45,903 nucleotides of DNA from Candidatus Nanoarchaeia archaeon (GTDB lineage: Archaea > Nanoarchaeota > Nanoarchaeia > SCGC-AAA011-G17 > JAFCDX01), in NCBI GenBank assembly GCA_028717785.1, contig JAQUND010000011.1:1-45903 (forward strand), written 5' to 3'. This document shows positions 11,466-38,292 of the stretch, piece by piece. A program made the position numbers and the translations under genes. Under the pieces are notes generated by a model. It was given only the letters and a program-made list of their open reading frames with translations, had not been told where the DNA came from and searched no databases. Positions within the stretch are counted from its first letter, which is position 1; each line of letters opens with the position of its first letter.

Positions 11466-13208
11466 TTAATTTTTCTTTTTATTAATATAGGACATAGGCA
11501 TATAAAAATCTTCACCAGTTTCTGTAATGAATTGTCCGTATTCGCCACTATCGATTGTAGTCACAAAAGATACTTTCTCTCCCTTTGTGATAACAGAATT
11601 CCCTTGCTCATCGAACCAATATGTACCTTCATCATGATCAACTGGAATGTCTTGAGAAACAACAAATATATTCGATTTTTTTACCTGTTCTAAGTCATTA
11701 ATATTTTTCATTATAGTCTTTTTGTCATCGAGTCTAATGATGAACATGGGACCACGTTGTGAAACAACTTCTCCAATTTTTCCCTTTTCTTTACCAGTTT
11801 TTATTTTAACCCTATCACCAGATTTGATTTTTGTTTTAGCAGTTTTATAGAGAGATTCTTCTGAAGCAAAAAAACAACGGGGACATTCTATAATATCTTG
11901 TTGCCCTGCATCAACGGAAGTGGCCTTTATTTTCCAAAGATCTGTTTTAAAACCACATTTTAAACATTCAAATGTATCAACTCTTGAAACTGTTTTATTT
12001 GCAGGAGCAATTTCTAGAACAACAATAGGAACTTGTTTGCGTAATTCAAAACCTGGCTTTAATCCCGCATCATCTTTTATGTCATGAGGATTATCATAAG
12101 GAATATCAGAATAATCATGGGTGGAAATTGAGAAATCTTTATTACCTGATTCATTTTCAATTGGATGAGTTGCTTCTTTTTTACCAAAAACTTTTTCAAG
12201 GATTCTATCGACAAAACCTGTTTTTTGTTTTGGTAAGACTTGACAAAGATTTTCTAACTCTTCACTTGAAAGAGTTTCTTTTGCTGTGAGTATTTGATTT
12301 GCTGTTTTGATTTCTATAGAACCGTCTTGTTTGATTGCAATATTTGCAACATCAGTATCCTTTGATGCAGCTTTTAAAAGAACTCCATCCTCTTTTACCA
12401 TTGTTTCAATTTTCGAATTGAGGATATTTGCAAGCAGATAATTACTAACTTCAGAAGTGGAAAGAATTTTTCTAAAAACAGCGCCAGCAAAAGCAGGATT
12501 AGCTACAAGAGAAACATCAAAAAATGTGTTATTTATACATATTTCTGCAGCTCTTCTTGATGTCCCATCAGGTAGTCTATAAGTAGAACCTTTATTACCA
12601 CGTCTAAGATGTTCACAATATGATGTAGGATCATTTGCAATGTTTCCACAAATACTGCATCTTGTTTGAGCTGTAGTACAACCCATAGAAACTGCATTTA
12701 TAATACCATTTTCAATATTTGCTACAAGATCTTTGTGTCTTCTATCTACAGAAAAAAGGACATCAATAAGAAGTGTGTCACCCATGTCTCTTGCAATGAC
12801 ATCAATGCATTTTCCTTTTGCATTTTCTAATCTTTGATCATGTTCTACAAAGGTTGTTGCTCTTTTAAAGGACTTGTAATCTTTTAAAAGATCATTACAT
12901 GTCCAAGCATCATGATTGTCATTGATAAATTTTTCAGTAGCAGTAGTAATCCAGTAGCCATTGTCTTCAGTTTTTACCCCAGCCATAATCGTAGTATGAA
13001 TGTAGATAAATTTCGTTGGATCAATTGTGCTTACAACCTGAAAATCAGCCTCTTTATCGACAGCTTCTTTGTCAACAGCTTCTTTTTTGGGTTCTTCAAT
13101 AGTGTTTTTGATGTTTGCTTGTTTCTTTAGAGCACTCCAACTACTAATGTCACCACCCAAAATTTCGATTTTTGCTGTTTTGAGCATGCCAACTTTATTG
13201 AAAGACAT
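11466..13208 (-). CDS. Prohead maturation protease with C-terminal zinc ribbon and KOW-like domain (580 aa)
   Basis: Residues ~56-245 form a phage prohead serine protease domain of the T4 gp21-like superfamily: FVEHDQ supplies the catalytic His (H123), GKCIDVIARDMGDTLLIDVL is a core strand pair, and NAVSMG supplies the catalytic Ser (S174). It is followed by CSICG...YCEH (C184, C187, C198, H200), a metal-binding insert I associate with large-phage relatives, and SLVANPAF. The enzyme would cleave scaffold and capsid precursors during head maturation. The C-terminal ~330 residues are unusual: a zinc ribbon (C415, C418, C442, C445) and a KOW-like segment (~460-500, SGDRVKIKTGKEKGKIGEVV). Residues 343-356 share a motif with the 172-aa gene at 4986-5504. 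GGAGG precedes the ATG and a promoter-like motif lies 56 bases upstream. Confidence 0.85.
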   Translation of the reverse strand: MSFNKVGMLKTAKIEILGGDISSWSALKKQANIKNTIEEPKKEAVDKEAVDKEADFQVVSTIDPTKFIYIHTTIMAGVKTEDNGYWITTATEKFINDNHDAWTCNDLLKDYKSFKRATTFVEHDQRLENAKGKCIDVIARDMGDTLLIDVLFSVDRRHKDLVANIENGIINAVSMGCTTAQTRCSICGNIANDPTSYCEHLRRGNKGSTYRLPDGTSRRAAEICINNTFFDVSLVANPAFAGAVFRKILSTSEVSNYLLANILNSKIETMVKEDGVLLKAASKDTDVANIAIKQDGSIEIKTANQILTAKETLSSEELENLCQVLPKQKTGFVDRILEKVFGKKEATHPIENESGNKDFSISTHDYSDIPYDNPHDIKDDAGLKPGFELRKQVPIVVLEIAPANKTVSRVDTFECLKCGFKTDLWKIKATSVDAGQQDIIECPRCFFASEESLYKTAKTKIKSGDRVKIKTGKEKGKIGEVVSQRGPMFIIRLDDKKTIMKNINDLEQVKKSNIFVVSQDIPVDHDEGTYWFDEQGNSVITKGEKVSFVTTIDSGEYGQFITETGEDFYMPMSYINKKKN

Positions 13209-14478: not shown

Positions 14479-14876
14479 TAATCTCTTGCTTTCCCTATTA
14501 TTGTTCCTATAGTACGCGAATCATTCCATTCAGGTATTGCGCCCAGTCTAGCATTACTTGCTTTTGTCACGTCATCATATAATTGCTTTGATGGGAAGAT
14601 ATATACAGAACCTTTTGCATATGTCTCGTTGTCAACGTATTTATCGTTTAGATCAAAGATAATCTCAAAAACTATTTTCCAATGTTGATAAGATTGCTCT
14701 GTCTCATCTTCTCTAAAACTTGAATCTTTAAGTTCAAGATGTACATGTTTAGATTTAATAGAACTAATAAATTGTTTTACTTTTTTTTCGAAATCAATCT
14801 TATCGACAAATTTCTGTTTCGAAACTGTTCTTTCACTTGCTTTCAAAATTTCATTTGTAATAAGTTCTATATTCAT
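14475..14876 (-). CDS. Portal-proximal protein with N-terminal tag, unknown function (133 aa)
   Basis: The first residues, MNIELITNEILKASERT, form the short helix shared by several proteins here. The rest alternates a helical segment (KKVKQFISSIKSKHVHLELK) with a beta-rich part (QHWKIVFEIIFDL, GSVYIFPSKQ). No family is recognised. Both ends overlap neighbours by four bases (ATGA), in the order portal, this gene, SWIM protein. The location suggests a head or neck role. Confidence 0.65.
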   Translation of the reverse strand: MNIELITNEILKASERTVSKQKFVDKIDFEKKVKQFISSIKSKHVHLELKDSSFREDETEQSYQHWKIVFEIIFDLNDKYVDNETYAKGSVYIFPSKQLYDDVTKASNARLGAIPEWNDSRTIGTIIGKARDY

Positions 14877-17128
14877 ACTTTAAATTCTTCTCGAATTGTT
14901 TCTCTAATTGCACTTTTGATTTTTTCAATCTCGTGTGTTTCATTTAATTTTGATTCAAGTAAAAAAGTAAGTTTTGAAATATTATCAGCATATAAATCTT
15001 TTGCAGCATTTACTTTTTCTGTAATTGGCAATTCATCTTTAATTCTAGATGCAAAAACTTGAGGTAAATATTTTTTAAGCGTATGAATTCTTATTTTAGT
15101 TGTCGAAGATCCATTTAAAGCAAGAATTTCATTTTCTAAGTTCAAAACAGCACGTCTAGCATTCTGACTCAATTTTAAATCTTTTATCATTGAATCAACC
15201 CAAGCCTTCTTTGAGTTTTCTTCAACAATAATAGCAGCACCAAGTTGCTCAGCTTTATCCGTGTCCACAAATGGAATATCAGGGATTTCAACTTTATTTT
15301 CAGATTCAGCAAATAATTTTACTTTTTTTTGATCTGTTCTTTCGGGTTTGAGTCTTTTTTCTAAAGGAACTTCCAGTTCTTCTATTTCATCGTCTCTTTT
15401 CTTATCTTTTTTATTTTCTTGTCTATCATATCTACGTTGTTCTCTTGTTTCTGCTGTTTTTGTAATTTTTTCATTTTGTGTCGCAAACATTTCTGTTGAT
15501 GCTTCAGGTTCATATTTTAAACCAAGTTCTTGTGCCCTTAATTCCGCAATTGCAGGTGCAAGAGTTCTTCCAGCTTCGGTAGCAGCACCATTCATCATGG
15601 TGAAATAATTAATATCGAGTGGAGTACCTTCAAATCTCTTGAGCCTTTCTTTAACAGTTTCAGCGTCAAGCCCAAAACACTCGAGCCAAGTTTGCATATC
15701 GATTTGACCCTGAGTAACCATTTGAGCAAGCATCTGTTTATGGGCTGTATCATCAACAAAATTCAATCTGTTCCATTTGATACGAGGATACAACCATTTG
15801 ATTTTCTTTTCTTTCTTAGAAGTACCTTCTTCATATTCTGCCCAATCATTTCTTTTGGCCATAGGAAGAAATAATGATTGAATCACATAACTTTCAATTC
15901 TTTCTCTATAAATTGAATATTTTTGATTCATTACTTCTAATACGGTTTGTCCATTAGCATAAGAACCTTCACCTAACAAGAAACTTTTATTTATCATTAA
16001 CCCTATCAACAGTTCCTCGTTTATCCAATTCCATTCTGACTCTAATTGCATCAACCCTTGACTTGTTCCAACAAGGTCCCAATGCAATTCATAGTTAGTA
16101 ATGATGGCGTAATCAGGATCTGCAAAAGCACTGTCGACCTGTTCTCTAATTATATTCAGATCAGCCATACCTGTAGAATCTGCCCAAATCAAATGTTTCG
16201 GCGTAAGATGTCGAGAAGCTACAGCATCCTGTGATTGTCTTAATCTGTCTTTATAAATAAGAGTTTTGAAATTTCTCTCTACAATACCAGTACCCACAAG
16301 GTCATAATCAGCCATTTTGTAGGTGACATGAGCCACATGGCTACCATGATTTGGATCTGTATTTAAAGGTATTTTCTTTCCTGTTTGTACAAGTTCAATA
16401 ACATCTTCAGGTATTGCTTTAAAAAGAACACCTGTTTTTGGGTTATCAGGTCCATTGTTAATAATTTTCTTCATTTGCTCATTTGGAATTAAATCGACTC
16501 TCATTATATCAGTAAATTGAAGTTTTTCAAGTTCTATATAATCAGGATCTAACAGAGTCAGTTTTGTCCAACGGTTTTTCTGTTCGCTCCATCGAGCAAA
16601 AGGAAAGACGTTACCAAGTTTGTAGTATTCAACACCCATTTGAAGGAGTTTATTGAACAAATCAATACCTTCAGTGGAACACATTTCTTCGTATTCTTCT
16701 TGGATCTTCCTTGTTTTTATCTTATCTTTGCTTGGGGGTAATGTCAATCTTATACTTGACAAAGGAAGTTCAGCATGAGAATCTATAGCAGTACTAACTA
16801 AAGGATCATATTTGTAAAAATAACGACACCATGCATTTATTTCTCTATAATCACGAGGAAGTAAGATAGAACTTGGCTCAAATTCTGGGTGGTAAAAGCT
16901 TGGCATAGAATTCTTAACATTTGCTCCACCCCCACAAGTATTAGCAGTCTTAGACATTGATCTAGACATTCGATCTACTACACGTAACAAACGTTTGTTA
17001 TATTTTCTGGGCTTTCCTTGATAAAACTCAGAATCTATAATAGTTGTGTCATTCCCGAATTTGATCGTAGCGCCATTCTTTTTCATGCCACTTGAATCAA
17101 GTTCAGAGCGTTTTTTTCTTTGAATCAT
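14873..17128 (-). CDS. Portal protein (751 aa)
   Basis: Portal proteins form the dodecameric ring at the head vertex through which DNA is packaged. Typical segments are YDPLVSTAIDSHAELPLSSI (helix near residue 110), YYKLGNVFPFARW, LTLLDPDYIELEK, PKHLIWADSTGM, a stem-like region around NEELLIGLMINKSFLLGEGS (~385), and VLEVMNQKYSIYRERIESYV. The C-terminal third is an extended Lys/Glu-rich region (~560-640) followed by a helical domain (AVLNLENEILALNG to the end), longer than many portals. The gene lies two genes away from the terminase large subunit, in the normal order. The start at 17128 is preceded by a promoter-like motif at 17157-17173. Identification is by pattern and synteny and is strong. 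Confidence 0.85.
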   Translation of the reverse strand: MIQRKKRSELDSSGMKKNGATIKFGNDTTIIDSEFYQGKPRKYNKRLLRVVDRMSRSMSKTANTCGGGANVKNSMPSFYHPEFEPSSILLPRDYREINAWCRYFYKYDPLVSTAIDSHAELPLSSIRLTLPPSKDKIKTRKIQEEYEEMCSTEGIDLFNKLLQMGVEYYKLGNVFPFARWSEQKNRWTKLTLLDPDYIELEKLQFTDIMRVDLIPNEQMKKIINNGPDNPKTGVLFKAIPEDVIELVQTGKKIPLNTDPNHGSHVAHVTYKMADYDLVGTGIVERNFKTLIYKDRLRQSQDAVASRHLTPKHLIWADSTGMADLNIIREQVDSAFADPDYAIITNYELHWDLVGTSQGLMQLESEWNWINEELLIGLMINKSFLLGEGSYANGQTVLEVMNQKYSIYRERIESYVIQSLFLPMAKRNDWAEYEEGTSKKEKKIKWLYPRIKWNRLNFVDDTAHKQMLAQMVTQGQIDMQTWLECFGLDAETVKERLKRFEGTPLDINYFTMMNGAATEAGRTLAPAIAELRAQELGLKYEPEASTEMFATQNEKITKTAETREQRRYDRQENKKDKKRDDEIEELEVPLEKRLKPERTDQKKVKLFAESENKVEIPDIPFVDTDKAEQLGAAIIVEENSKKAWVDSMIKDLKLSQNARRAVLNLENEILALNGSSTTKIRIHTLKKYLPQVFASRIKDELPITEKVNAAKDLYADNISKLTFLLESKLNETHEIEKIKSAIRETIREEFKV

Positions 17129-17807: not shown

Positions 17808-18090
17808 GCTCTCTCCTTTGTTTTCTCTCTTGTCTTGCTTTTTCTATCTGTTCCTGTTTTTGTTTGAATAATTGTCTTGTTATTGCTGCTCTTTTTTGAT
17901 TTGTAAAGAAACTTGTCTGTTTCTCAATTGCATTAGATAAGTCTAAAGCTTGTAAAGCCATTTTTTGCATACCAATAAGATAAAATTTAGCTGAAATATC
18001 ATTCTCTTTCAACATCGAAATTTCTTTATTTAATTCTTGAGAATGAAACTTCAGTTTATTAATTATTTCTCTAACATGTTCTATACTCAT
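17788..18090 (-). CDS. Small helical protein coupled to the terminase gene (100 aa)
   Basis: A 100-residue, all-helical, charged protein (VREIINKLKFHSQELNKEIS, then a basic Gln/Lys/Arg-rich C-terminal helix). Its ATG overlaps the terminase stop by four bases (ATGA) and its own end overlaps the next gene by 20 bases. Size, helix content and position next to the large terminase subunit would fit a small terminase subunit or a packaging accessory, but no DNA-binding motif is recognisable, so this is inference. Confidence 0.55.
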   Translation of the reverse strand: MSIEHVREIINKLKFHSQELNKEISMLKENDISAKFYLIGMQKMALQALDLSNAIEKQTSFFTNQKRAAITRQLFKQKQEQIEKARQERKQRREHGTSMV

Positions 18091-19958
18091 CTAAATGATC
18101 TCACTGGATGAATAGCTCTTTGCAAATTAGTTACCGTTTTATGCAATTTCAAACGTCTTTGATAAGCTTGATGACTTGCTACTTTATCACCTGTTGACGT
18201 AAAAGTTTGCACTCCATTTGTTCCAACAATACTCAAAGCAGACATCCCGATTTCATTGTTAGTGGCTATATATGAAGCATTGGCTAAAACATCGCACAAG
18301 TCATCCGTTGTTATTTCTCCAAGAGTAGGTGCCTCAATTAAAAATTGTTTTTTCCCAACTCTTTTTTCCTGTAAATTTTTAAGTTCTTTTATTCCCCGTT
18401 CATGATAAAACATGTCGAGTCTTTCATCATAAATAAGATCTCTCAAATTTTTGTAAATTTTAGTGTTGTAATGTCTACTAAAAGGAGTTTTGAGAGCATT
18501 CAATCCTAATTTTTTGAACTTAAGAACAGAAGATGTACTGTCAAATTGGTCAAATACTATTTTCACTATTCTGAATTTTTGACATAAACTTGTTATATAT
18601 TCGTGTATGACTTCTTCATCGATATAAGGCAATCCTTCAAATTCAGGATCTCTTAATGACCAAACTTTCCATCTGTCTAAAATGACAATTGTTCTTTTTT
18701 GTCTTTTTTCTTTTCCTTCGATTACATTAGTTTTTTCTTTTTGTTCTACATGAACCATAGCAAGAGCATATCCATTTTGAGATGATGAAGGATCTACAGC
18801 TATATAATGGGCATAATTTGAAACTGGGACTGTTGTTTCACTATCTCTTGTGATACAAGCATCAATTTTTTCAGGGTATCTAAAGAATCCTGAAATTATA
18901 GAAGAGAATTCTGCACCAAATTCTGAGTCAAATGATTCTGGGTTTCTCTTTTTTTCGCTTTCAAGATACTCGAAAGTAATTGTTTCATTCATCTCCCAAG
19001 TAGGTATTCTAAACATGATCTTGTTGAGATCAGGTTCATCACCTTCTCGACCTATACAATCAAGATATAGATCGTAAAAAATACCTGCTTTGATGTACGG
19101 CGACGAAATGCTTATGATTTTTCCATCAAGTCCAAATGTCGCTACAGAAGGAGTCAATGCCTCATAAATTTGATCTCCTGAACGGTTTCCCTCGTTATCA
19201 ATAAAGTGAGCAATCTCGTCAAGAATTCCAACTATAATGCTACCACCACGTATACCACGTGCTGTACAAGGCAGAGCCAATATTTTTATAGAAACATGAG
19301 GATCTAAAGGTTTCCCGTGTAATCTTGTTTCTTGCGTATAGAGTTCTAAATCTCTTTTTGTTCTTAAACGAATCTCAGATTGATTTTTGCCTTCGACATA
19401 AGGCGTAAACCATTTTGAATTAAGAATTCTATTTTGAGTAGCTTTTGCAAGAATTAATGCCTGATCTGTTGTACTGGCAATATTGACAATGCGAATTTCT
19501 TCGCCTTGGGGTAATTTATAGTATTTTTGAGGATCTACTTTTAAAATTAGTCTATATGCTTCATATGAAGAAATGACCGATGCAATAAATGTCTTACCAG
19601 ATCTACGTCCACAAACTAGAACAAGTTCAATAAAATCTTTAGGATCAAGGTTTCTTAAATTTGTTCTACCTTGTTGAATTAAAAAATTGACATATTCTAC
19701 TTCAGTTAAATACTTCCCTTCCTCATCAAACGGGAATGATCTTACTTTTATAGTTTTTTCTTTATCATCAAGTGAAATACCATAATAAACTTTAAGAACA
19801 AGTTTTTCAACAGCATGTAAGGGTTGATCAAGATAAAAAGGGTGTTCACAGAAGGTGATTATGTCAACTTCTTTTTCTGAATCATCAATGAGTCCCTTTG
19901 TTGCTTCTGCAAAAAGGGACTCAAATGAGAAGGAAGTATCTAAAATATCATTAGCCAT
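18087..19958 (-). CDS. Terminase large subunit (623 aa)
   Basis: DNA-packaging motor with N-terminal ATPase and C-terminal RNase H-like nuclease. With the ATG at 19958 as start, Walker A is GRRSGKT at residues 117-123, Walker B is GILDE at about 244-248, followed by an S/T-rich coupling segment (IISISSPYIKAG). The nuclease acidic residues are visible in AVDPSSS (D389), IVFDQFDS (D470) and TTDDLCD (near 552-556). A longer reading from a TTG 72 bases upstream adds residues that lie wholly inside the sigma-like gene and look unlike a terminase start, so MANDILDTSF is preferred. The gene overlaps its upstream neighbour by 8 bases. Length fits large-phage terminases. Confidence 0.9.
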   Translation of the reverse strand: MANDILDTSFSFESLFAEATKGLIDDSEKEVDIITFCEHPFYLDQPLHAVEKLVLKVYYGISLDDKEKTIKVRSFPFDEEGKYLTEVEYVNFLIQQGRTNLRNLDPKDFIELVLVCGRRSGKTFIASVISSYEAYRLILKVDPQKYYKLPQGEEIRIVNIASTTDQALILAKATQNRILNSKWFTPYVEGKNQSEIRLRTKRDLELYTQETRLHGKPLDPHVSIKILALPCTARGIRGGSIIVGILDEIAHFIDNEGNRSGDQIYEALTPSVATFGLDGKIISISSPYIKAGIFYDLYLDCIGREGDEPDLNKIMFRIPTWEMNETITFEYLESEKKRNPESFDSEFGAEFSSIISGFFRYPEKIDACITRDSETTVPVSNYAHYIAVDPSSSQNGYALAMVHVEQKEKTNVIEGKEKRQKRTIVILDRWKVWSLRDPEFEGLPYIDEEVIHEYITSLCQKFRIVKIVFDQFDSTSSVLKFKKLGLNALKTPFSRHYNTKIYKNLRDLIYDERLDMFYHERGIKELKNLQEKRVGKKQFLIEAPTLGEITTDDLCDVLANASYIATNNEIGMSALSIVGTNGVQTFTSTGDKVASHQAYQRRLKLHKTVTNLQRAIHPVRSFR

Positions 19959-20958
19959 TATTGTATGACGCCACAACTTCGAAAATAATGTCTTCTGTTG
20001 TTCTGTATCTAAGCATTGCAATTTTGACAAGTTTGTTGATCATACTTGCTGTGTAGAGTTCTTTCAATTTTGGACTTTCTCTAAGTTTCTCTCTTCCAAT
20101 TGCAATCCAATGACGAACCATTCTTTCAGTAAAAGCAGGATCTTCTTTACCAAGTTCTTTTGCGACCTCATTACTTGTCAGATCATCAGCTCCTGGATCA
20201 TCCGGATGATAATATTTTAAAAGAACTTTCTTTTCATTGTCAGGTAATTTCTTGATTTCTTCCATGAAAAGTCTCATAATCTCTTTGTTTCTTAGAACTT
20301 CGTCCGGGAGAGGTTCGTTACTCTTGAGTGTGTCCATAAGAAGAAGTGCGCTCTCACCTTCATCACCAGAAACTTCTTCGTACATACTTTTGATAGTTCC
20401 CTGACCAAAAAGTTTTAAAATCTCAAGAGTTTTATCTACATCTGTCTTAAGAATTTCAGAAAATTCTTTAAGATCTTTTGATTCATAATCAGCATTTTCA
20501 TCATCAAGTTGAGATAAATCGATTTTGTTAAAATCTGGCATTCTTTTATTTTTTTGAAAAAATGTCCTTAGAGCATTCTTGAATCTGATTTTATATTTTC
20601 CTACATCAGGTATAACTTCACCTTTACCTAGCATTTCGGCAATCGAGTGTCTATTGATTTTCGTTCCAAAAGCTTTTGCAATGTAACCTACAATTTCACC
20701 AGCAGATTTGGGAGTAAGTTCCATAAGAACTTCAAGAAAACTACTCTCAATGTGATGACGAATTTCTTCCCTTTCTTTTGCATTACTAGCAAGTTCAGAA
20801 ACTTGTTTCATCTTTTTCCCTATCAATCCGCCAAATGTCTCGCGTAAATCATCAAAGACTCTTGTTTTATCTTTTCTTGATGTTGCTGAATCTTGCAAGG
20901 TTTTAACAGCGTTTACAAGATCATCACCCTCCAATTTTTTAGATTTAAGCCAAAACAT
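19951..20958 (-). CDS. Sigma-70-like factor, probable phage transcription factor (335 aa)
   Basis: With the ATG at 20958, preceded by GGAGAG, the protein reads MFWLKSKKLEGDD. Residues ~50-105 (helices with SSFLEVLMELTPKSAGEIVG, then YIAKAFGTKINRH) resemble sigma region 2 in layout. FFQKNKRMPDFNKIDLSQL resembles region 3. The C-terminal ~80 residues are the best match: EEIKKLPDNEKKVLLKYYHP, TSNEVAKELG and ERMVRHWIAIGREKLRES follow the region 4 helix-turn-helix pattern that binds the -35 element. An upstream longer start lies inside the zinc-ribbon gene and is rejected. Placed next to terminase, it could direct late transcription and read the 17-base motif reported here. Divergent from bacterial sigma factors, so the call is tentative. 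Confidence 0.6.
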   Translation of the reverse strand: MFWLKSKKLEGDDLVNAVKTLQDSATSRKDKTRVFDDLRETFGGLIGKKMKQVSELASNAKEREEIRHHIESSFLEVLMELTPKSAGEIVGYIAKAFGTKINRHSIAEMLGKGEVIPDVGKYKIRFKNALRTFFQKNKRMPDFNKIDLSQLDDENADYESKDLKEFSEILKTDVDKTLEILKLFGQGTIKSMYEEVSGDEGESALLLMDTLKSNEPLPDEVLRNKEIMRLFMEEIKKLPDNEKKVLLKYYHPDDPGADDLTSNEVAKELGKEDPAFTERMVRHWIAIGREKLRESPKLKELYTASMINKLVKIAMLRYRTTEDIIFEVVASYNNG

Positions 20959-21858: not shown

Positions 21859-22542
21859 CTAGTTCAAAAACCAGTTTATTGGTTGAATATTTTTAGATGC
21901 CAAAAAATCATTTGTTTTAGAAAAGTGTTTGCATCCAAAAAATTTGTATGAGGATAAAGGTGACGGATGAGCAGACATTAAAATTTGATGTTTTTTCTGA
22001 TCTATTAAAAATCTCTTATTTTTAGCAAAAGAACCCCACAACAAAAAAACAATATTGCTTTTTAAATCAGATATTTTTTCAATTACACAATCAGTGAAAA
22101 TCTCCCAACCTATTTTTGAATGCGACAATGGTTTATGGAGCTCGACTGTAAGAAAAGAATTCAAAAGCAATACGCCTTGACGAGCCCAGGACTCTAAACA
22201 ACCAGATTTTGGTATTTCAATTTCTAAATCATTTGCAAGTTCCTTAAAAATATTTATAAGACTTGGTGGCTTATCGATTCCTGCAGGAACAGAAAAAGAG
22301 AGGCCCTGAGCTTGTCCAACATTATGATAAGGGTCTTGGCCTAATAGAACCACTTTGGTGTCATCAAAAGAACACCATTCAAATGCTTTAAAGATATTAT
22401 GTATTTCTGGTCTTATTTCTTTTTCTTTGTACTCTGCAAAAATTCGTTTTTTTAATTCAATAAAATAAGACTTATCCTGTTCTTCTTGAAGGATTGTTTT
22501 CCAACTTTCAGGTAACTCTAAAATATTTTTTCTATTTATCAT
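21859..22542 (-). CDS. ung: Uracil-DNA glycosylase, family 1 (227 aa)
   Basis: Removes uracil from DNA by cleaving the N-glycosidic bond. The water-activating motif is GQDPYHN (residues 68-74, catalytic D70) and the minor-groove loop is HPSPLS (H192-S197). Supporting segments are GLSFSVP, PPSLINIFKEL, GVLLLNSFLTV and IVFLLWGSFAK. The length of 227 matches bacterial Ung. The start overlaps the upstream SLOG gene by 11 bases. Together with the dUTPase at 30976-31458 it would keep uracil out of phage DNA, implying ordinary T-containing DNA rather than a uracil-substituted genome. Confidence 0.97.
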   Translation of the reverse strand: MINRKNILELPESWKTILQEEQDKSYFIELKKRIFAEYKEKEIRPEIHNIFKAFEWCSFDDTKVVLLGQDPYHNVGQAQGLSFSVPAGIDKPPSLINIFKELANDLEIEIPKSGCLESWARQGVLLLNSFLTVELHKPLSHSKIGWEIFTDCVIEKISDLKSNIVFLLWGSFAKNKRFLIDQKKHQILMSAHPSPLSSYKFFGCKHFSKTNDFLASKNIQPINWFLN

Positions 22543-23532: not shown

Positions 23533-25245
23533 TTAATTTTTATGTTTATGAATCTGAACTACGCGCTCTTGCTGTAAAGCTTTTTCTTTTGAAGGATGCC
23601 TTCCTAAAAGTCTATCTTGATCCTTTGTGTATAAACACCATCGTTGTTCTGATTTGGGTCTATTATCTTGATCTTTTTTAGGGCATTTTTTGATTATTGC
23701 TATCTTGATAAGTTCATGTTTACTAAGAATCTTTTTCTCTTCATTTGTCAAAAGGTTACTCAAGTATTTTATTGGATCTTTAAAACCATAACGCTCAATA
23801 TATTTGAAAATAATATTGAAAGCTTCCCAATTTTTACTAAATTTGCAACCTAATAATTCAAATTCATTTGTTTTGAATCTAATTAAACGAAATTCTTTAA
23901 TTTCTTCTTTCAAAGTTTTCAAATCTTGAAAATCTCGTGTTAATTTTGCTTTTATATCAGTCGTGTCCTTATTTGCTTTTTCTTGATAGACTAAGTCATT
24001 CACATGAACTTTTGTTCTAAAAATAAAGGGTAGAACAAATCTAACAATAGACAAAGCTTGCTGTCGTTCTTTTGCAAATTCTTCATCAGGTACAAAAGTA
24101 GTATCGACAAATTTTGGAGAACTCAACCACGAATCCTTAAGAATATCATAAACAGAATCAGATTCTAAACGTCTATTTTTCCCTATAACAAAGAATTTCA
24201 CGGGATGGTCACCAACCAACTTCTTGTCATTTAACCTATAGACATATTGGCGGATAAATTGCCTTATCTCGAGATCATTCGAGCAATGTCTAACCGATTG
24301 TAGATTGTCTTGTCTAAACTTGTCAAAATCTATAGAAACATTTATATCGACATCAGTTTCCGGAACATATTGATTAGTAACCATTGATCCTGTCATTGAA
24401 ATATCAGTTACCCAATTTTTATAATTGTTAAATTTAGAAAGAACACTAGAGAGCCTATCAAGAATTATCTTTCTAATTTCAGATTTTAATCTTATTGGTT
24501 CGACTTTCAAATCCCAAATCATAGGACAAAAAGTTTCTTGAGGATAATCAATTATCGAAGCATGCTTGGGCAAACGTCTTTCAAAAAAAATTTCAAGTTC
24601 TTTGGGTAAGAGTTTTTTCTTTTTTAAAACTTCTGCATTCTGCTCCAACATATCTTTCCCGCCTGGGACATAATCTCTTCTTTCGATTAAAGGTTGCATT
24701 ATCTGAGCAATAATTCTCTCAGTATTTGCTTTTTTGTATTCTGATGTATCTTTAACTTTTATCCAAAGAAATTTTTTAGCACTTGTTTTTATAAGAGCAT
24801 AATAACCATCAACTTTTTTACCATTAAATTTTACCACGTATTTCTTATCATAATCGACATCTACAAGTTCAAAAGTTCCTTTGTCATAAATATCGACTGT
24901 TCCTGCACCATAATGCCCTTCTGGTATAGTGCCCTCAAAATCACGATAAGCTATATCATGATCTTCAGTTTCTGATGCAAGCAAAGGTTTATCGCTTGGG
25001 AGTTTATGCTTTGGAATTGCCCAACTTCTAAGCACTGTACCTGATTTGTCTGGGAATTTTGTTTCTGGTTCCGTTGTGCTATCATTATCCCAAACACGCT
25101 TTTTGTAATATGAAGTAAGGGCATCTTTCAATGAATCAACAGGGAATTCAAGTCGTAGATCCCAGTGTTCATTAGTAGCGACATGATGTTGTATTACGAA
25201 TTTTCCTTTATATCCAATTTGAAGTTTTTCTTTATCGTAACTCAT
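23533..25245 (-). CDS. LigD-type 3'-phosphoesterase domain fused to a Pol-beta-like nucleotidyltransferase (570 aa)
   Basis: Residues ~10-165 match the LigD phosphoesterase domain, which trims 3'-phosphate and ribonucleotide ends. QHHVATNEHWDLRLE holds H21, H27, D29 and R31, equivalent to the active-site residues of Pseudomonas LigD. RSWAIPKHKL is followed by EDHDIAYRDFEGTIPEGHYG, giving H96 and Y100. Residues ~255-420 contain TGSMVTNQYVPETDVDINVS, with G286-S287 and D298/D300, the signature of Pol-beta-type nucleotidyltransferases. The C-terminal ~40 residues (RWCLYTKDQDRLLGRHPSKE) are a small motif common at the ends of phage proteins. I know no standard LigD with this fusion. The ATG overlaps the upstream stop (ATGA) and a terminator follows. 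It may process DNA or RNA ends together with the polymerase and ligase upstream. Confidence 0.85.
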   Translation of the reverse strand: MSYDKEKLQIGYKGKFVIQHHVATNEHWDLRLEFPVDSLKDALTSYYKKRVWDNDSTTEPETKFPDKSGTVLRSWAIPKHKLPSDKPLLASETEDHDIAYRDFEGTIPEGHYGAGTVDIYDKGTFELVDVDYDKKYVVKFNGKKVDGYYALIKTSAKKFLWIKVKDTSEYKKANTERIIAQIMQPLIERRDYVPGGKDMLEQNAEVLKKKKLLPKELEIFFERRLPKHASIIDYPQETFCPMIWDLKVEPIRLKSEIRKIILDRLSSVLSKFNNYKNWVTDISMTGSMVTNQYVPETDVDINVSIDFDKFRQDNLQSVRHCSNDLEIRQFIRQYVYRLNDKKLVGDHPVKFFVIGKNRRLESDSVYDILKDSWLSSPKFVDTTFVPDEEFAKERQQALSIVRFVLPFIFRTKVHVNDLVYQEKANKDTTDIKAKLTRDFQDLKTLKEEIKEFRLIRFKTNEFELLGCKFSKNWEAFNIIFKYIERYGFKDPIKYLSNLLTNEEKKILSKHELIKIAIIKKCPKKDQDNRPKSEQRWCLYTKDQDRLLGRHPSKEKALQQERVVQIHKHKN

Positions 25246-25523
25246 AAAACTTCAAACCTCATATTTCTTAATCTTGACAATCTTCTTTTCAATTCATTTT
25301 TAAGAGTTCTTTCATTAGTTACTTCCATATTCATAAGAATATCAAGAACTATTGATATGTTAGGCCTTCCCACAAAATTAGAAAAACCTGGAGCAGCCCG
25401 AATTGTTTTTTGAAAAAGAAGTGAACTTGGCCTGTCTAAAACAACATTAATTCGTATTTTTCTTGTTCTGTCAGCAGCTTCTTTTAAAATTTCATTTGCT
25501 ATTTTCTGGACTTGTTTCTTCAT
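25242..25523 (-). CDS. Small tagged protein in the LigD-like run, unknown function (93 aa)
   Basis: It begins MKKQVQKIANEILKEAADRT, the shared N-terminal helix. The rest alternates strands and basic helices (RKIRINVVLDRPSSLLF, ERTLKNELKRRLSRLRN) and is Arg-rich. No family recognised. It overlaps the holin-like gene at its start and the phosphoesterase fusion at its end by four bases (ATGA), so it is translated with both. Confidence 0.65.
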   Translation of the reverse strand: MKKQVQKIANEILKEAADRTRKIRINVVLDRPSSLLFQKTIRAAPGFSNFVGRPNISIVLDILMNMEVTNERTLKNELKRRLSRLRNMRFEVL

Positions 25524-25755
25524 TAGTTTCTTCTTTAATAGATTTTCTTGATTTTGATTTTACAGCAGCATGGCCTAAGCCCAAAGCTGACAATAAGAAA
25601 CCAAATATAGTCACACTCTTTGAAAAAACTAGAGGAAAACCATCAGGGCAACCATTGGGCCATATCACAGCTATACTCGGAATTAAAACAGACCAATAGA
25701 TCAATGCAATTGTTCTTTTTCTTCCATTAATGAGCCGCCATAATTTAACTAGCAT
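25492..25755 (-). CDS. Two-TM holin-like membrane protein (87 aa)
   Basis: The 87-residue protein has two hydrophobic segments, about 16-32 (IALIYWSVLIPSIAVIW) and 47-65 (SVTIFGFLLSALGLGHAAV), a short Pro/Gly/Cys-containing loop between them, a basic start (KLWRLINGRKR) and a charged, hydrophilic tail. Small proteins of this topology near an endolysin are commonly holins that permeabilise the inner membrane. The endolysin lies about 1.3 kb upstream in the same run, separated by the polymerase and cupin genes, so the pairing is suggestive, not certain. GGAGG precedes the ATG, which overlaps the polymerase stop. Confidence 0.55.
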   Translation of the reverse strand: MLVKLWRLINGRKRTIALIYWSVLIPSIAVIWPNGCPDGFPLVFSKSVTIFGFLLSALGLGHAAVKSKSRKSIKEETNEETSPENSK

Positions 25756-26606
25756 AATGCACCTCCAGTTTTATTGATTTCATAGAGTATGCGTAGATAA
25801 GAGGATTCTTTCTTTTTATTATCCCATTTGAATTTCTTTCCAATAACTTTTTGATAAATTTTATCAAACTTTGCATCTTCTTTTTTAAAACTTTTTAGAG
25901 AAGAAACTGGTACACAACATAATCCAGTTTCTATTCTCATGCTATATGGTGCAATATGACCACCATCAGATTTCATCGGTGAAAGATCTATATTAATTTT
26001 TGAACCAGAAGGCTTATTTGTTGCAATTACAATCTTGTCATCGTCTTTAAAATATTCTTCCAGACGTTTTTCAACATCTTTTCTGATAGCACTTATATCA
26101 CGTTTTGATTTTAATTTTCCTTTTACATGAAAACCTCGTTTTCCTGTAAAATTTATCTCTGGATTTGATTTGAAATCTTTTTGTTCTTTTATAAAATCAA
26201 CACATTGCGAAACAATATCTTTCAAAGATTCAAATGTTGCACTGGACCCTGGATCAATATCGAAAATAGCTTCATCCGTTGTAGTTGGAGATGTAATATG
26301 GTATTCACCTGTCTTCCCTGTGTGATATTGTTCAAAATCATCAACTGAATTGATCCTAATATATTGAGTTTTTTTATCATAAGGACGTCTTATGTAAAGT
26401 CTTGAACCCGGACGAATTGCCATGACAACAAATAAATCATGTCCTTTTAATTCTGGTACAAGTTTATTTTTTACACCATCATAATAATTCCAGACATCAA
26501 TTTCTTTCACACCGTTAGAAAAATATTCATTCTTTTTGACTACAAGTTGGTCAGGATGTTCTGGATAATCTGCTGTTTTATTCAGTAGTTTTTCCATCAA
26601 ATTCAT
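25749..26606 (-). CDS. LigD-type DNA polymerase/primase domain protein, stand-alone (285 aa)
   Basis: Archaeo-eukaryotic primase superfamily, closest by eye to the LigD polymerase domain, which fills gaps and adds nucleotides during end joining. An N-terminal YYDGVKNKLVPELKGHDLFV corresponds to the family's YY-x-lPhl segment. The catalytic motif I is AIFDIDPG (D116, D118), motif II is FTGKRGFHVKG (G155-H160), and motif III is INIDLSP (D207) followed by HIAPYSMRIETGLCCVPVS. All three metal ligands and the SGxxGxH-type motif are retained. It is a single domain, not fused to ligase or phosphoesterase. It overlaps the cupin gene upstream and the holin-like gene downstream. A stand-alone phage primase is an alternative reading; the neighbouring phosphoesterase and ligase genes favour the LigD view. 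Confidence 0.82.
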   Translation of the reverse strand: MNLMEKLLNKTADYPEHPDQLVVKKNEYFSNGVKEIDVWNYYDGVKNKLVPELKGHDLFVVMAIRPGSRLYIRRPYDKKTQYIRINSVDDFEQYHTGKTGEYHITSPTTTDEAIFDIDPGSSATFESLKDIVSQCVDFIKEQKDFKSNPEINFTGKRGFHVKGKLKSKRDISAIRKDVEKRLEEYFKDDDKIVIATNKPSGSKINIDLSPMKSDGGHIAPYSMRIETGLCCVPVSSLKSFKKEDAKFDKIYQKVIGKKFKWDNKKKESSYLRILYEINKTGGALC

Positions 26607-27021
26607 CCGTTTTATCGTTCAATGCATCAGCTTTTGTCTTATGAATTATTTTATCTTTGTGTTGCGGTGGTGCATAAAGTGTGTAAAGTTTAAGATCTTC
26701 TTTTCCTGTGTTAATTATATTGTGTTCTGTACCTGCAGGAATCAATATAGAAAAACCATCTTTAATTTGATGGGTCTCTCCACTAATAACAACTTCACCA
26801 GAGCCAGCATCTAATCTAAAAAACTGATCGACATCTTTATGTGTTTCTTTTCCAATATCTTCTTTAGGTTTTAATGTCATCAAAACTAATTGTAAGTTTT
26901 CTGCTGTATAAATAACTTTCCTGAAATTTTTGTTTCTTATTGTTTCTTCTTCTATATTGATGACAAAACCTTTTTTCTTGTTTTTCTTCAAAATCTCATC
27001 GGCTATTTTTGAAACATTCAT
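26578..27021 (-). CDS. Cupin-fold protein with N-terminal tag (147 aa)
   Basis: It begins MNVSKIADEILKKNKKKGFV, the shared short helix. Residues ~40-120 form a cupin beta-barrel: KETHKDVDQFFRLDAGSGEV and GFSILIPAGTEHNIINTG, similar to mannose-6-phosphate isomerase-type small cupins, with His residues that can bind a metal. The second-motif PxGxxH is clear, while part of the first motif is altered. The substrate is unknown. It lies between the endolysin and polymerase genes in a closely packed run. A tag placed before an enzyme-like domain is one of the clearer cases for a sorting signal. Confidence 0.75.
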   Translation of the reverse strand: MNVSKIADEILKKNKKKGFVINIEEETIRNKNFRKVIYTAENLQLVLMTLKPKEDIGKETHKDVDQFFRLDAGSGEVVISGETHQIKDGFSILIPAGTEHNIINTGKEDLKLYTLYAPPQHKDKIIHKTKADALNDKTDEFDGKTTE

Positions 27022-27029
27022 AATTTCAC

Positions 27030-27509
27030 CTATGCTAGAAATTCAAAATGTGGATAATCAGGGTTTTTAAATCTTCCTCCCCATTTCAATCCTACACTTT
27101 CTCCAAGTAATCCAGCTTCTAAATAATCAGGCTGTTCATTTTGATTGACATTAACTTTTACATCCCAAATAACTTTTCCATTTTTTGTAATAGCAATATC
27201 AAAAGCTCGTGATTTATCGTTTTCTTTATAACCATCATCAAGATCTACGAGATGTCGGGATGCAAGTGTCCATGTTACTTTATTCTTATTTTCTTTTTCT
27301 GTAATTGAAGGTAAATTAGCCATTCTTCTAAGGATATTGACTTCTCTTACAGGTTGTCTGCCTTGAGCATATAGTGCCTGTTGTTCTTTTACTGTTCTAG
27401 CTGTACATGTCACTATAAAAGCGATTTTTGCAGCATCCATTTTTTCTTTGAATTTAGCATATATTAGCTGCATTTGTGGTGTTAAATCTTCAATTTTTCT
27501 TGAAGCCAT
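27030..27509 (-). CDS. M15-family peptidoglycan peptidase, endolysin (159 aa)
   Basis: Zinc peptidase that cuts cross-bridge or stem peptides of peptidoglycan to release phage. TLASRHLVDLDD gives the first His (H86), SRAFDIAI the Asp (D104), and PHFEF the second His (H154), matching the M15 zinc set, and GLKWGGRF precedes the last ligand as in L-alanyl-D-glutamate endopeptidases such as the T5 endolysin. CTARTVKEQQALYAQGRQ is the usual N-terminal helix. There is no signal peptide, so a holin is expected (candidate at 25492-25755). The gene lies 3 bases from the AAA+ gene stop. Confidence 0.88.
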   Translation of the reverse strand: MASRKIEDLTPQMQLIYAKFKEKMDAAKIAFIVTCTARTVKEQQALYAQGRQPVREVNILRRMANLPSITEKENKNKVTWTLASRHLVDLDDGYKENDKSRAFDIAITKNGKVIWDVKVNVNQNEQPDYLEAGLLGESVGLKWGGRFKNPDYPHFEFLA

Positions 27510-27512
27510 AAT

Positions 27513-28973
27513 CTATTCTTCCTGATAAGATTCTGGCCATACACCTTCATTTTGTTTAAATTTCTTCTTTATTTTTTCGCCATTAGCTTTAGGGTTAAGT
27601 TCTTCTAGAGCAATCATAGCATCTTCCCAATATATTCCCTCATGATCAATTAATGTTTTAAGTTCTTCAGCAAGTTTATCATAATCAGTAGAGTTCCTTA
27701 CGATGATAAATTCTTTAATGTTTTCACGATTCTTAGGGTGTTTCATAGGTTTTCTGCCAAAAGCAGCAAGAATTTCACCAGCAATTTTGTCAATATTGTT
27801 ATTCAGAACTGAAGCGGTTTTGATTTGCGCTTTTTTAGTGAAATGCTTGTGTATTGCAGCTTTAATTTCTACCATTGTTTGTCCAGGAAAGAAGTTCTCA
27901 CGTATAATTTCGCAAGCTTCTCTAAGACAAGAAATTATTTCTTTGTCTTCATTGGTTGCAAGAATTTTTGCAGTATTTACAGTTTCAACAACATGAGACC
28001 CTGTAAAATCTTTTGAAAGCGTGATAATTTCATCATCGACAGCTTTTCCAAGATGTTTGAAATACATCATTTTAAGATTCTCAGGTCCAGGTAAACCAAT
28101 CTCTATTCTTCTATCAAAACGACAAGGGCGAGAAGAAAGAGCTGTGTCCAGCATTTCAATTTTATTTGTAGATGCTATAACAACAAGTGGTTCACCAAAT
28201 TTTCTCATACCATCAAGATTTGTAAGCAGATCGCCAAGTTGATTTGAAGCTGTAAAGTTATCTCTATTTCCACTCATAAAATCTATATCTTCGAATGCAA
28301 GAACTGTTGGGCCAAGATATGCCAAGAACTCAAACAGCTTACTAACAGCCATATATCTAAAAGATTCAGCTGTCACATAAATTCTACTTACATTTTTCTT
28401 GTCAAGATCATTAAAAACAGCTTTTACAACAGAAGTCTTCCCAGTCCCTGGAGGCCCATACATAACAAGACCCCGTTTGTTCACTCCTGCTGTTGCAAAT
28501 TTTTGATTTCCAAGAAATTCTGATGTGTTAAGCCGTATATCTTTCTTAGCTTTTTCGGTAAGGATAACATCATCCCAAGAAACTTTCGGAACATCCCTGA
28601 AAAACATTGTTTCTTTTTCAGCATATAGGCATTTTCCACGATATTGATTTTTCTTAATCATATCGTTTTCAAATCTGTCAATCCATTGTTTTGCTTCTTC
28701 TCTTGTTTGAGCATAACAGTTCACATGAAAACTACCATACTGCATATATGCTGTAATTATTTTGTTATCATAAACTGCAGATAAATTTTCAATTGCAGGC
28801 ATTGTGTTATAGACATCGATTTGTAAATCATCTAAAACTGGTTTTTTCCCAAAATCATTTGCTGTTGCAATTTTTGGTGTTTGTTCCTTCAACAGATTTG
28901 TGATTGTATATTTTGCAATTGGGACAAGTAAACCATCATAAGAACGAGAAACTGGAGTGAGACCGAGTATCAT
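27513..28973 (-). CDS. AAA+ ATPase with C-terminal tagged module (486 aa)
   Basis: Residues ~130-340 are a classical AAA+ domain: Walker A GPPGTGKT (173-180), Walker B VLAFEDID (224-231), sensor-1 ASTN (267-270) and Arg-finger region SRPCRFDRR (281-289), closest to the Cdc48/BCS1-like group. The first ~125 residues are an N-terminal domain I do not recognise. Residues 390-405 (LNNNIDKIAGEILAAF) carry the short helix that other proteins here have at their N terminus, followed by about 80 residues of unrelated sequence, so this looks like a fusion of an ATPase with a formerly separate tagged protein. It could remodel or unfold a phage or host protein. It sits upstream of the endolysin in the same run. 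Confidence 0.85.
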   Translation of the reverse strand: MILGLTPVSRSYDGLLVPIAKYTITNLLKEQTPKIATANDFGKKPVLDDLQIDVYNTMPAIENLSAVYDNKIITAYMQYGSFHVNCYAQTREEAKQWIDRFENDMIKKNQYRGKCLYAEKETMFFRDVPKVSWDDVILTEKAKKDIRLNTSEFLGNQKFATAGVNKRGLVMYGPPGTGKTSVVKAVFNDLDKKNVSRIYVTAESFRYMAVSKLFEFLAYLGPTVLAFEDIDFMSGNRDNFTASNQLGDLLTNLDGMRKFGEPLVVIASTNKIEMLDTALSSRPCRFDRRIEIGLPGPENLKMMYFKHLGKAVDDEIITLSKDFTGSHVVETVNTAKILATNEDKEIISCLREACEIIRENFFPGQTMVEIKAAIHKHFTKKAQIKTASVLNNNIDKIAGEILAAFGRKPMKHPKNRENIKEFIIVRNSTDYDKLAEELKTLIDHEGIYWEDAMIALEELNPKANGEKIKKKFKQNEGVWPESYQEE

Positions 28974-28987
28974 ATTTAATCTCCTTT

Positions 28988-29323
28988 TTAATTACTCTCT
29001 TTTAGATGTTTTTTATTAACAATGTGGTATTGTTCTAATGGGAAAGCTTTAAGTCTTTTCAAAACATCAAGTACTTTTTGTTTGCTTTTTACATCAGAAT
29101 TTATCTCTACTTCTACAAGATTTTTGCCAGTAAAATCTGGGAACTCTTCGTCATCTATATCAAAAACTTTAAGCTCTACTGTTAATCTGCTTAAATGCCT
29201 TTTCAATTCTTCAATTTTTGTTTCATCAAGACCCCATGACCCAAGATCCTTTGGATATTTTGCCGATGTTTCTAAATTGAAAGCAAGTTTTTTAACTATA
29301 GAATTCAATTCTTTCAAAATCAT
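28988..29323 (-). CDS. Small protein coupled to the DNA ligase gene, unknown function (111 aa)
   Basis: No family recognised. Residues ~1-20 (MILKELNSIVKKLAFNLETS) form an amphipathic helix. The rest alternates helices and strands (LKRHLSRLTVELKVFDIDDE, NLVEVEINSDVKSKQKVLDV). The ATG overlaps the ligase stop by four bases (ATGA), so it is co-translated with the ligase. It also has its own candidate promoter motif inside the ligase 3' end. Confidence 0.6.
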   Translation of the reverse strand: MILKELNSIVKKLAFNLETSAKYPKDLGSWGLDETKIEELKRHLSRLTVELKVFDIDDEEFPDFTGKNLVEVEINSDVKSKQKVLDVLKRLKAFPLEQYHIVNKKHLKESN

Positions 29324-30459
29324 AAGTTTCCTCCAACAACTGATCTTATAATAGACTCAGATATAATAAAAAGTTTAGAACTTTTTAAAAAATTTTTTTT
29401 CATTTTAGCATAATCTGGTAATTGACTCAAACGCAAATCCTGTGCATTTATATCTTTATCGGTTCTTTCTCTAACGAATCCAGGTTTTGAAATAGTAGCA
29501 GCAAATTGATCTTCAATTTTTTCCCAAGATTTATCTTTAAATTCAAATGTATTGACAGGTCTATAATTCAATCTCTCGTAACTTGTTTCTATAACTTTAT
29601 TCATTTTAAAAGGATCGACCCAAATAGTTCCATTTTCTTTCTTTATCTCATATTTTTTAGCAAGTTTCCACCATTCATCCCGATCAGTATCTGTAAAACC
29701 AACTCCTAAATTTATGACTTTATAAAACTGTTTCCCATCATAAAAACCTAATATCAAAGCCCCCATACGGCCTTTATTCTTCCCACGACCTTCTTGAACA
29801 GCTAATACGCCAAGATCTAAAGTAAAAACAGGTTTAGACTTATAGATTTTTCCATCTGCCGTTCGAACAACTATACCTTCATTTTTTTCTTTTTCGACCC
29901 ACTTGTTCCAAACTGATTTCAAGTCAGAAACTTTTCCGATTTTATGATCTACTGGATAAATATGCTTCGATTTCCCAAACCATTTTTCGAGTTTTTCAAA
30001 ATTTGTTTTATAATCTTCATAAGAACTTGAAACTTCTTTATTATCAAGTTCATGAACTTCAAAAGGAAAAAATTCTATATGTTCTTCTTCACCAAGTTCT
30101 GGTTTTCTTAACGTTGATTCAGTATCGTTAAAATGTACTGGTTTTCCATGAGATGAAGTCTTTGCAAGTTCTCCAAAAATAATAGCCTGTCGAACTTTTT
30201 CTTTTTTCAAAATAGTTTCTATTTCGTTCGACACAGGCATATCTTGACGAATTCTACCATCTTTTGAACTGAACTTTACATCTCCTGGAGTATATTCCAT
30301 GCCACCTAATTCGCCATCAATTTTTTCTGACGCGAAAATCTCTTGGTCTCCAACTTCTTTTTTGAGCTCATCAAAGCTTAAGGAGACCATACCTTGATGC
30401 TCTTTCCAGGATTGTACTTGTTTTGTTAAGCTATTAGACTTGTCAATATGGGACTTCAT
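29320..30459 (-). CDS. ATP-dependent DNA ligase, LigD-type (379 aa)
   Basis: Seals nicks using ATP through a lysyl-AMP intermediate. The nucleotidyl-transfer motif is SEKIDGE with K46 as nucleophile; other motifs are AIIFGEL, EGIVVRT and KSKPVFTLDLGVLAV, followed by an OB-fold-like region (GRMGALILGFYDGKQFYKVI). It is stand-alone, with no polymerase or phosphoesterase domain. I place the start at the ATG at 30459 (MKSHIDKS): a TTG 51 bases upstream also opens the frame but would translate through the candidate promoter motif at 30475-30491 and give an odd hydrophobic leader. No ribosome binding site precedes the ATG, which lies exactly 15 bases after that motif. The polymerase and phosphoesterase genes lie 3-6 kb downstream. 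Confidence 0.9.
   Translation of the reverse strand: MKSHIDKSNSLTKQVQSWKEHQGMVSLSFDELKKEVGDQEIFASEKIDGELGGMEYTPGDVKFSSKDGRIRQDMPVSNEIETILKKEKVRQAIIFGELAKTSSHGKPVHFNDTESTLRKPELGEEEHIEFFPFEVHELDNKEVSSSYEDYKTNFEKLEKWFGKSKHIYPVDHKIGKVSDLKSVWNKWVEKEKNEGIVVRTADGKIYKSKPVFTLDLGVLAVQEGRGKNKGRMGALILGFYDGKQFYKVINLGVGFTDTDRDEWWKLAKKYEIKKENGTIWVDPFKMNKVIETSYERLNYRPVNTFEFKDKSWEKIEDQFAATISKPGFVRERTDKDINAQDLRLSQLPDYAKMKKNFLKSSKLFIISESIIRSVVGGNL
29366..29382 (-). promoter_or_regulatory. Candidate promoter motif inside the 3' end of the ligase gene
   Basis: The minus strand reads GTTCTAAACTTTTTAT at 29381-29366, one base change from the TTCTAAAGTTTTTAT core. It lies 42 bases upstream of the ATG at 29323 but within ligase codons, so it may be partly chance. 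Confidence 0.35.
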
Positions 30460-30515: not shown

Positions 30516-30929
30516 TTAAACAGTTACAGCTTCGGCATCTACTTCCTCAAGTATTTTTTGCAAATCATACTTGGGTTTCAATTTCATCTTATGCTGTTGT
30601 TTGTCGTATTCAAGGAAAGGATGTGGAGATTCACGCTTATCTTTTATGAAAAGCTCGATAAACTCTTTACCACCTCGAAGAAGTTCATCTATCGATAATG
30701 TCTTGACATCAGGGTTTCCTAAGAAAAACTTTTTATCAAGATATCCAAAATCTGCAAGAGCAATTTCAGGTTCACTTTGGCTAGTAAAATCTTCCCAAAA
30801 TTTTTTTCGATCTTCAGGCGATAAAAACTCAAAATGTAGATCGGCATGCCCTTTCCCCTTAACAGGTACCTGAGGCATTGCTTCTTTTACTATATCATCT
30901 AACAATCTATTATATTCAGCACATTTCAT
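30516..30929 (-). CDS. Unknown protein upstream of the DNA ligase (137 aa)
   Basis: No family recognised. Residues ~1-18 (MKCAEYNRLLDDIVKEAMPQ) resemble the short N-terminal helices of other proteins here. The rest is charged and mixed (HADLHFEFLSPEDRKKFWED, GGKEFIELFIKDKRESPHPF). A promoter-like motif lies 28 bases upstream, and AGGAG precedes the ATG. A 10-bp helix (30933-30959, one G.U pair) can cover this ribosome binding site if it is transcribed. Located between dUTPase and ligase. Confidence 0.65.
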   Translation of the reverse strand: MKCAEYNRLLDDIVKEAMPQVPVKGKGHADLHFEFLSPEDRKKFWEDFTSQSEPEIALADFGYLDKKFFLGNPDVKTLSIDELLRGGKEFIELFIKDKRESPHPFLEYDKQQHKMKLKPKYDLQKILEEVDAEAVTV

Positions 30930-38031: not shown

Positions 38032-38292
38032 TTAATAATCGAATCTAGCAAGTTCTTTCAATAATTCAGGTTTTGTTTGTTCACTTGACAAAATTTCTTG
38101 TGCAAAATCAATTTCAGCACCATCTTTTAAATACTCAAATGCTAGAATTGTACGAAGTTCTTTTAAAGAAAGAGTTCCAACATTCTTATTTCCAAGTTTT
38201 TTCTTAATCTTATTATACTCTTGTTCTAAACTACGAAGATCAAAATTACATATTTTAAGAATTTCTGATGCAACTCTTTCTACATTTTTCAT
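38032..38292 (-). CDS. Small tagged helical protein (86 aa)
   Basis: It opens MKNVERVASEILKICNFDLR, the shared N-terminal helix, and continues helically (LEQEYNKIKKKLGNKNVGTL, EYLKDGAEIDFAQEIL). No family recognised. Its start overlaps the upstream stop by four bases (ATGA). It is the last gene before a strong terminator. Confidence 0.65.
   Translation of the reverse strand: MKNVERVASEILKICNFDLRSLEQEYNKIKKKLGNKNVGTLSLKELRTILAFEYLKDGAEIDFAQEILSSEQTKPELLKELARFDY

Follow-up and report, generated by a model that had tools for sequence, protein, structure and literature searches.

The window analysed here is a stretch of 45,903 nucleotides (contig JAQUND010000011.1) that, to judge from its genes and their kin, is part of a tailed phage of the jumbo kind. 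In one tightly packed run on its minus strand it carries three separate open reading frames (ORFs), which encode an ATP-dependent DNA ligase, a LigD-type primase-polymerase (Prim-Pol) and a LigD-type 3'-phosphoesterase (PE) fused to a probable Pol-beta-type nucleotidyltransferase (NTase). We propose, with moderate confidence, that these proteins form one phage-encoded DNA mending module, similar to LigD and LigC and Ku-less as far as the records reach, which would trim, fill and seal phage DNA. The computed evidence consists of the domains, the catalytic residues, the linkage of the genes and, in some relatives, their fusion. A preliminary description of this DNA, made from the letters alone, had already recognised three closely packed genes on the same strand, as they proved to be, and had taken their products for the catalytic parts of LigD.

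The three proteins

The PE domain occupies about residues 13-167 of its protein and the NTase about residues 238-375, after which come a helical region and, at the C-terminus, a short motif. The active site H-H-D-R-H-Y is complete, so that the retention of catalytic residues claimed earlier is confirmed together with the assignment to the LigD PE domain. The proposed fusion is also borne out, with the NTase half graded as probable; its fold search matches are general Pol-beta NTases with low Z scores. In the phage collection searched, the only match of the protein was a weak one in the NTase region, to a phage of 735 kb (present as two records of equal length) that gave one weak ligase match, no Prim-Pol and no Ku. 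By eye, the C-terminal motif (WCLY...LGRH...EAL..ER) recurs inside a 1407-aa protein of the virus record G002 (L002 2127-6350). Elsewhere, a LigD-type PE is fused to an Fe/Mn superoxide dismutase (P0036, 11 contigs). Of two gut-sample records called Bacteriophage sp. to which the LigD-like PE-Pol protein P0050 had matches, the first (L022) was rejected as a phage, since it reads by eye as a bacterial chromosome.

The Prim-Pol matches PF21686 with an E value of 2.3e-13 and has all three catalytic aspartates (D116, D118 and D207) in the alignment, which upholds its description as a LigD-type enzyme with an intact active site. No match to it, or to the fusion protein of locus L001 described below, was found in the phage collection. 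Its plasmid matches were three Sinorhizobium replicons (identity about 25%), one of them annotated ligD.

The ligase is a generic two-domain ATP-dependent DNA ligase and is not demonstrably LigD-type. Its nucleotidyltransferase and OB core was found and motif I lysine K46 is retained, as stated earlier. It matches Pfam RNA_ligase; towards its C-terminus lies an OB/DNA_ligase_A_C region, and among the solved chains that it matches in sequence and fold, DNA ligases make up the overwhelming majority. It matched 61 phage records, all at less than 60% identity, and of the 20 listed the majority carry a DNA ligase annotation. Two ligase loci, L015 and L021, are weak. The idea of three LigD parts thus holds for the PE and the Prim-Pol, which belong to LigD families, but not demonstrably for the ligase.

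Linkage and fusion in relatives

Linkage was assessed by comparing the longest contigs of 28 Prim-Pol clusters, of PE-NTase clusters (120 of 197 rows listed) and of 22 ligase clusters for exact matches in size. At least 10 of the 28 Prim-Pol clusters have a longest contig equal to the base with that of a PE-NTase or ligase cluster, one being the window's own; among the matches listed, three Prim-Pol clusters match both, three the ligase only and four the PE-NTase only. Sizes of 424144 (the window's own proteins), 24911 and 21840 bases are common to all three families, whilst 10607, 5047 and 12946 pair Prim-Pol with ligase, and 45536, 83143, 17074 and 43418 pair PE-NTase with Prim-Pol. One further pair, at 12910, joins PE-NTase and ligase. 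An equal longest-contig size is strong but indirect evidence for a single contig.

Virus relatives are represented by seven IMG/VR records (G001-G007), reached with alignments A3, A4 and A6, which may be fragments. The PE domain is present in all seven and the ligase, by profile A3, in two. In G001 (41 kb) the ligase (L001 5988-7109) is followed 2 bases on by a 750-aa protein that unites Prim-Pol, PE and NTase, with a tape-measure-like gene near by; a Prim-Pol-PE fusion is also seen in P0038. G002 (159 kb) encodes in one direction, with other genes between, the portal, a 1796-aa protein that starts with the ligase, a 1743-aa protein with the Prim-Pol, a 595-aa protein, a 782-aa protein with the PE, the head protease and the major head protein. 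The PE stands alone in G003 (358 kb; 175 aa), and G004 (71 kb) has, upstream of a head protease, both the PE and, separately, a relative of the NTase domain (E 1.1e-21 with the NTase-only profile, Z set to 1000).

In G005, G006 and G007 (141, 179 and 178 kb) the PE occurs with a ligase-like part, firmly in the first and weakly in the other two. A single match to the LigD model PRK09632 spans PE and ligase in G005 (L024; residues 123-516, E 1.3e-21); there was no match to the A3 ligase profile, an empty answer that shows little. In the other two (L025 and L026), where A3 gave no match either and PRK09632 matched two stretches each (the best at 27-171 and 27-164), the ligase-like part was recognised by eye from KVDG and later motifs. 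Its profile support is weak: PF04679 matches L025 (E 0.003) but not L026, and with the PBCV-1 ligase the E value is about 1.

Two of these large proteins have further parts. The 1743-aa protein of G002 (L002 15306-20537), beside portal and capsid genes, joins the Prim-Pol to a rubrerythrin-like end, and the 1874-aa protein of G005 (L024 9617-15241) combines the PE and LigD-like ligase part with intein splicing regions and an SNF2-type helicase.

On these comparisons the grouping of the trio is not due to chance, and since the domains are fused and co-located in diverged viruses a common function is likely.

Proposed function and alternatives

The most likely mode of action, drawn by analogy from studied LigD, archaeo-prokaryotic non-homologous end-joining (AP-NHEJ) and LigC enzymes (PMC8656161, PMC4797286, PMC5663958), is one of trimming, filling and sealing. 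The PE would remove 3' phosphates and excess 3' ribonucleotides from 3' ends, the Prim-Pol would add a few nucleotides or ribonucleotides at a short gap or overhang and the ligase would seal the nick; for the fused NTase, untemplated addition of nucleotides or a part in regulation is possible. In favour of the likeness to LigC, a Ung-type uracil-DNA glycosylase gene stands one gene from that of the PE-NTase, and LigC/Prim-PolC is itself tied to a glycosylase (PMC5663958). An endolysin-like gene is interleaved with the module and head genes lie near, as again in G002, which suggests that the genes are expressed late and that the module acts close to packaging or entry. From this gene position, the module would probably be made late in infection with the lysis and head proteins, and its target would be the large genome of the phage itself, either ahead of packaging or immediately after entry. 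As no Ku was seen, we infer that the module would most naturally act on gapped or nicked DNA and on short overhangs that have annealed, not on free blunt ends.

A bolder version, unlikely enough to be offered as speculation, makes a LigD-like end-mending kit part of the virion programme. The kit would be produced together with the head proteins and possibly packaged and injected, and on entry the linear jumbo genome could at once be healed, filled in and closed, with no need of Ku; it is to this version that we would relate, just as tentatively, the relative in which the parts of the kit are domains of very large proteins whose genes lie between those for portal and capsid.

Several observations weigh against a common mending module. 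The third catalytic aspartate of the Prim-Pol (D207 of P0002) is glycine in 15 of 26 aligned rows, and part of the family may therefore be inactive as polymerase; an alignment of 12 glycine-bearing proteins (A5) has an invariant glutamate near by (E246), and in these the carboxylate may have moved. The PE-NTase rows that match at 24911 and 21840 bases lack the PE domain. Prim-Pol was found in only two of the seven PE-bearing virus records, and uracil-DNA glycosylase (UDG) in none of the four related records searched. Neither PE nor Prim-Pol was found in any of three phages that are near by their virion genes (phage G, LR745208 and Tunturi_5). As the virus records may be fragments, a missing Prim-Pol and a missing Ku are both uncertain. 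The linkage looked for in relatives is seen in part: shared contigs, fusions and the head-operon trio of G002 speak for it, and the sparse Prim-Pol and the three near phages against it.

The preliminary description had suggested roles in repair, in joining of genome ends or at RNA-containing ends. A linked catalytic module that would trim, fill and seal has moderate support, but Ku-dependent non-homologous end-joining (NHEJ) is only a rival, and to us a rather unlikely one. It would make the trio a split LigD that acts with a Ku from elsewhere in the phage genome or from the host, circularising the genome or mending double-strand breaks, as is thought for Corndog with its own Ku. Circularisation by a phage Ku goes with short cohesive 3' ends; the ends of the present genome lie outside the window. 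The LigD families of the PE and Prim-Pol agree with this, and phage Ku exists, in mycobacteriophage Corndog (PMC4351075) and, more broadly, in 11 phages (PMC8136500). None was found, however, among the 40 scanned ORFs of the window, as the preliminary description had noted for the window, nor by six-frame Pfam search in any of the seven possibly fragmentary virus records, a search that may miss diverged Ku (of 14 control genomes, 5 gave a signal and 1 passed the cut-off), and the ligase is not specifically LigD-type. The database clusters of the window's proteins have a longest contig of 424,144 bases, apparently the parent of the window, which would be about one tenth of it; absence of Ku from the genome is therefore unproven, since most of that contig lies outside the sequence examined.

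Excision repair of bases or ribonucleotides, in which UDG opens uracil sites and the Prim-Pol, PE and ligase carry out short-patch filling in the manner of LigC/Prim-PolC, is decidedly unlikely. UDG and dUTPase genes do lie near the module on the same strand, but UDG was not found in the four related records searched, no AP endonuclease family appeared among the Pfam matches of the 40 scanned ORFs, and the available parts of the LigC literature examined do not mention a PE partner.

That the PE, the NTase and an RNA_ligase-like enzyme instead heal cleaved tRNAs is very unlikely. Jumbo phages do carry sets of RlaP NTases and RNA ligases (PMC7824862), the window has a tRNA-Arg gene and the ligase has its RNA_ligase match; however, no RlaP model was among the Pfam matches of the PE-NTase protein (P0001) at E 0.1, the Prim-Pol is LigD-type, and the C-terminal region and solved matches of the ligase point to DNA. 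It is highly improbable that the genes are unrelated and merely close in a crowded genome, for although six other genes lie between the three and most PE-bearing virus records show no Prim-Pol, the fusions and common longest contigs in diverged relatives already disfavour this.

Genomic setting

The run extends from about 30.9 to 21.9 kb (Table 1) in the order 137-aa protein, ligase, 111-aa protein, AAA ATPase, M15 endolysin-like protein, cupin, Prim-Pol, two small proteins, PE-NTase, SLOG-like protein and UDG. The 137-aa protein resembles the N-terminal extension of the PE-NTase homologues P0029 and P0016 (blastp E 5.5e-6 and 2.4e-4), a weak resemblance found among only 172 proteins. A defence system was considered and set aside; PADLOC, run on 8 proteins, matched the AAA ATPase only (best IetA).

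Table 1. Features of the module and of the surrounding window.
Feature	Position	Strand	Remark
ATP-dependent DNA ligase	29320..30459	-	nucleotidyltransferase + OB core, motif I K46
LigD-type primase-polymerase (archaeo-eukaryotic primase, AEP)	25749..26606	-	D116/D118/D207
LigD 3'-phosphoesterase + probable Pol-beta-type NTase	23533..25245	-	
137-aa protein adjoining ligase	30516..30929	-	possible further module part; weak link by blastp
AAA ATPase	27513..28973	-	between ligase and Prim-Pol; counted only as a neighbour
Endolysin-like M15 peptidase	27030..27509	-	within run
Small protein with hydrophobic stretch	25492..25755	-	between Prim-Pol and PE-NTase; holin-like by eye only
Uracil-DNA glycosylase (Ung type)	21859..22542	-	one gene from PE-NTase
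Terminase large subunit	18087..20030	-	further along same strand from module (downstream)
Portal protein	14873..17128	-	
Head maturation protease-like protein	11466..13208	-	
Major head protein	7366..8244	-	
Proteins with similar N-terminal stretch	13771-14478, 14475-14876, 25242-25523, 26578-27021, 38032-38292, 39659-39955	-	

The phage origin named in the preliminary description is well supported by the capsid, terminase, portal and head protease genes on one strand. The capsid protein is nearest by sequence to those of Bacillus phage G (48% identity) and an uncultured relative, LR745208 (50%), both near 490 kb. Megablast of positions 20001-45000 against phages gave no match, nor did IMG/VR scans with the PE-NTase protein, the Prim-Pol alignment A1 and alignment A5, or scans of genome contigs with A1 and A4, so that the closest relatives are known only as database proteins. 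One of these, P0005, bears the NCBI name of a Nanoarchaeia metagenome-assembled genome, which may reflect misbinning.

A sigma-factor-like gene lies on the minus strand beyond the module toward the terminase. Positions 1-2000 are GC-richer (46%) and hold tandem repeats with a period that is a multiple of 9 in all 14 repeat rows; they may encode a collagen-like fibre that runs off the window. The products of 5808-6857 (NUMOD3 and TnsA-like endonuclease, near the capsid gene) and 41343-41978 (a GIY-YIG protein) are possible homing endonucleases. Six minus-strand proteins share a similar helix-like N-terminal stretch of the form I/L/V-A/S/T/G/N-x-E-I/L/V-L/I/M/V. With 50 of the 54 translated ORFs taken in, the stretch lies near the N-terminus in 6 of 50 genes against three places elsewhere in the same genes, and none of 2000 shuffles reached six (mean 0.24, maximum 3), the pattern having been chosen after it was noticed. 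It presumably recalls T4-type prohead protease sites.

Relation to known systems and significance

Split operons of PE, polymerase and ligase are known in cells (PMC4797286). The AP-NHEJ system of Methanocella paludicola has separate Ku, Lig, Pol and PE genes in a cell, whereas here they belong to a phage, no Ku is seen, the PE is fused to a probable Pol-beta NTase, the ligase is not specifically LigD-type and lysis and head genes adjoin. The archaeal stand-alone LigD-type PE (3p43, 3p4h) is likewise cellular and without the NTase fusion. Bacterial LigD has the same three activities by family, but as a single protein, where the window has three ORFs and some relatives partial fusions. Mycobacterial LigC/Prim-PolC, an excision repair system with a glycosylase link (PMC5663958), shares with the window a LigD-like Prim-Pol, an ATP ligase encoded near it and a nearby glycosylase; the window differs in its PE domain, its UDG linkage is seen only in the window, and the likeness in lacking Ku extends only to the sequence seen. 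Corndog resembles the window as a phage that recruited parts of NHEJ, but it encodes Ku where the window shows catalytic parts and no Ku. Corndog is said to rely on the LigD of its host.

The preliminary description knew of no such split set in a phage. In the literature covered, which takes in few subscription papers and no preprints, no report was found of a PE, Prim-Pol and ligase trio in a phage, which is no proof of absence; in the main text of a survey of 224 jumbo phages the word LigD does not occur and mentions of NHEJ concern SbcCD (PMC7824862). As split operons in cells and Ku in phages were already known, the phage trio is a variant and not a new kind of system.

The forms met in phages, namely separate genes, Prim-Pol-PE-NTase, PE-ligase and very large head-operon proteins, suggest that the set has been selected as a unit outside cells. 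With Ku known from phages, a phage lineage that instead has the catalytic half of NHEJ, and in which Ku has not been seen, would provide a natural test of how LigD-type enzymes work without Ku, a situation that is also common in archaea, where 230 of 243 genomes encode LigD without it (PMC7719229). The place of the module beside lysis and head genes raises the idea that DNA mending may be coupled to packaging or entry.

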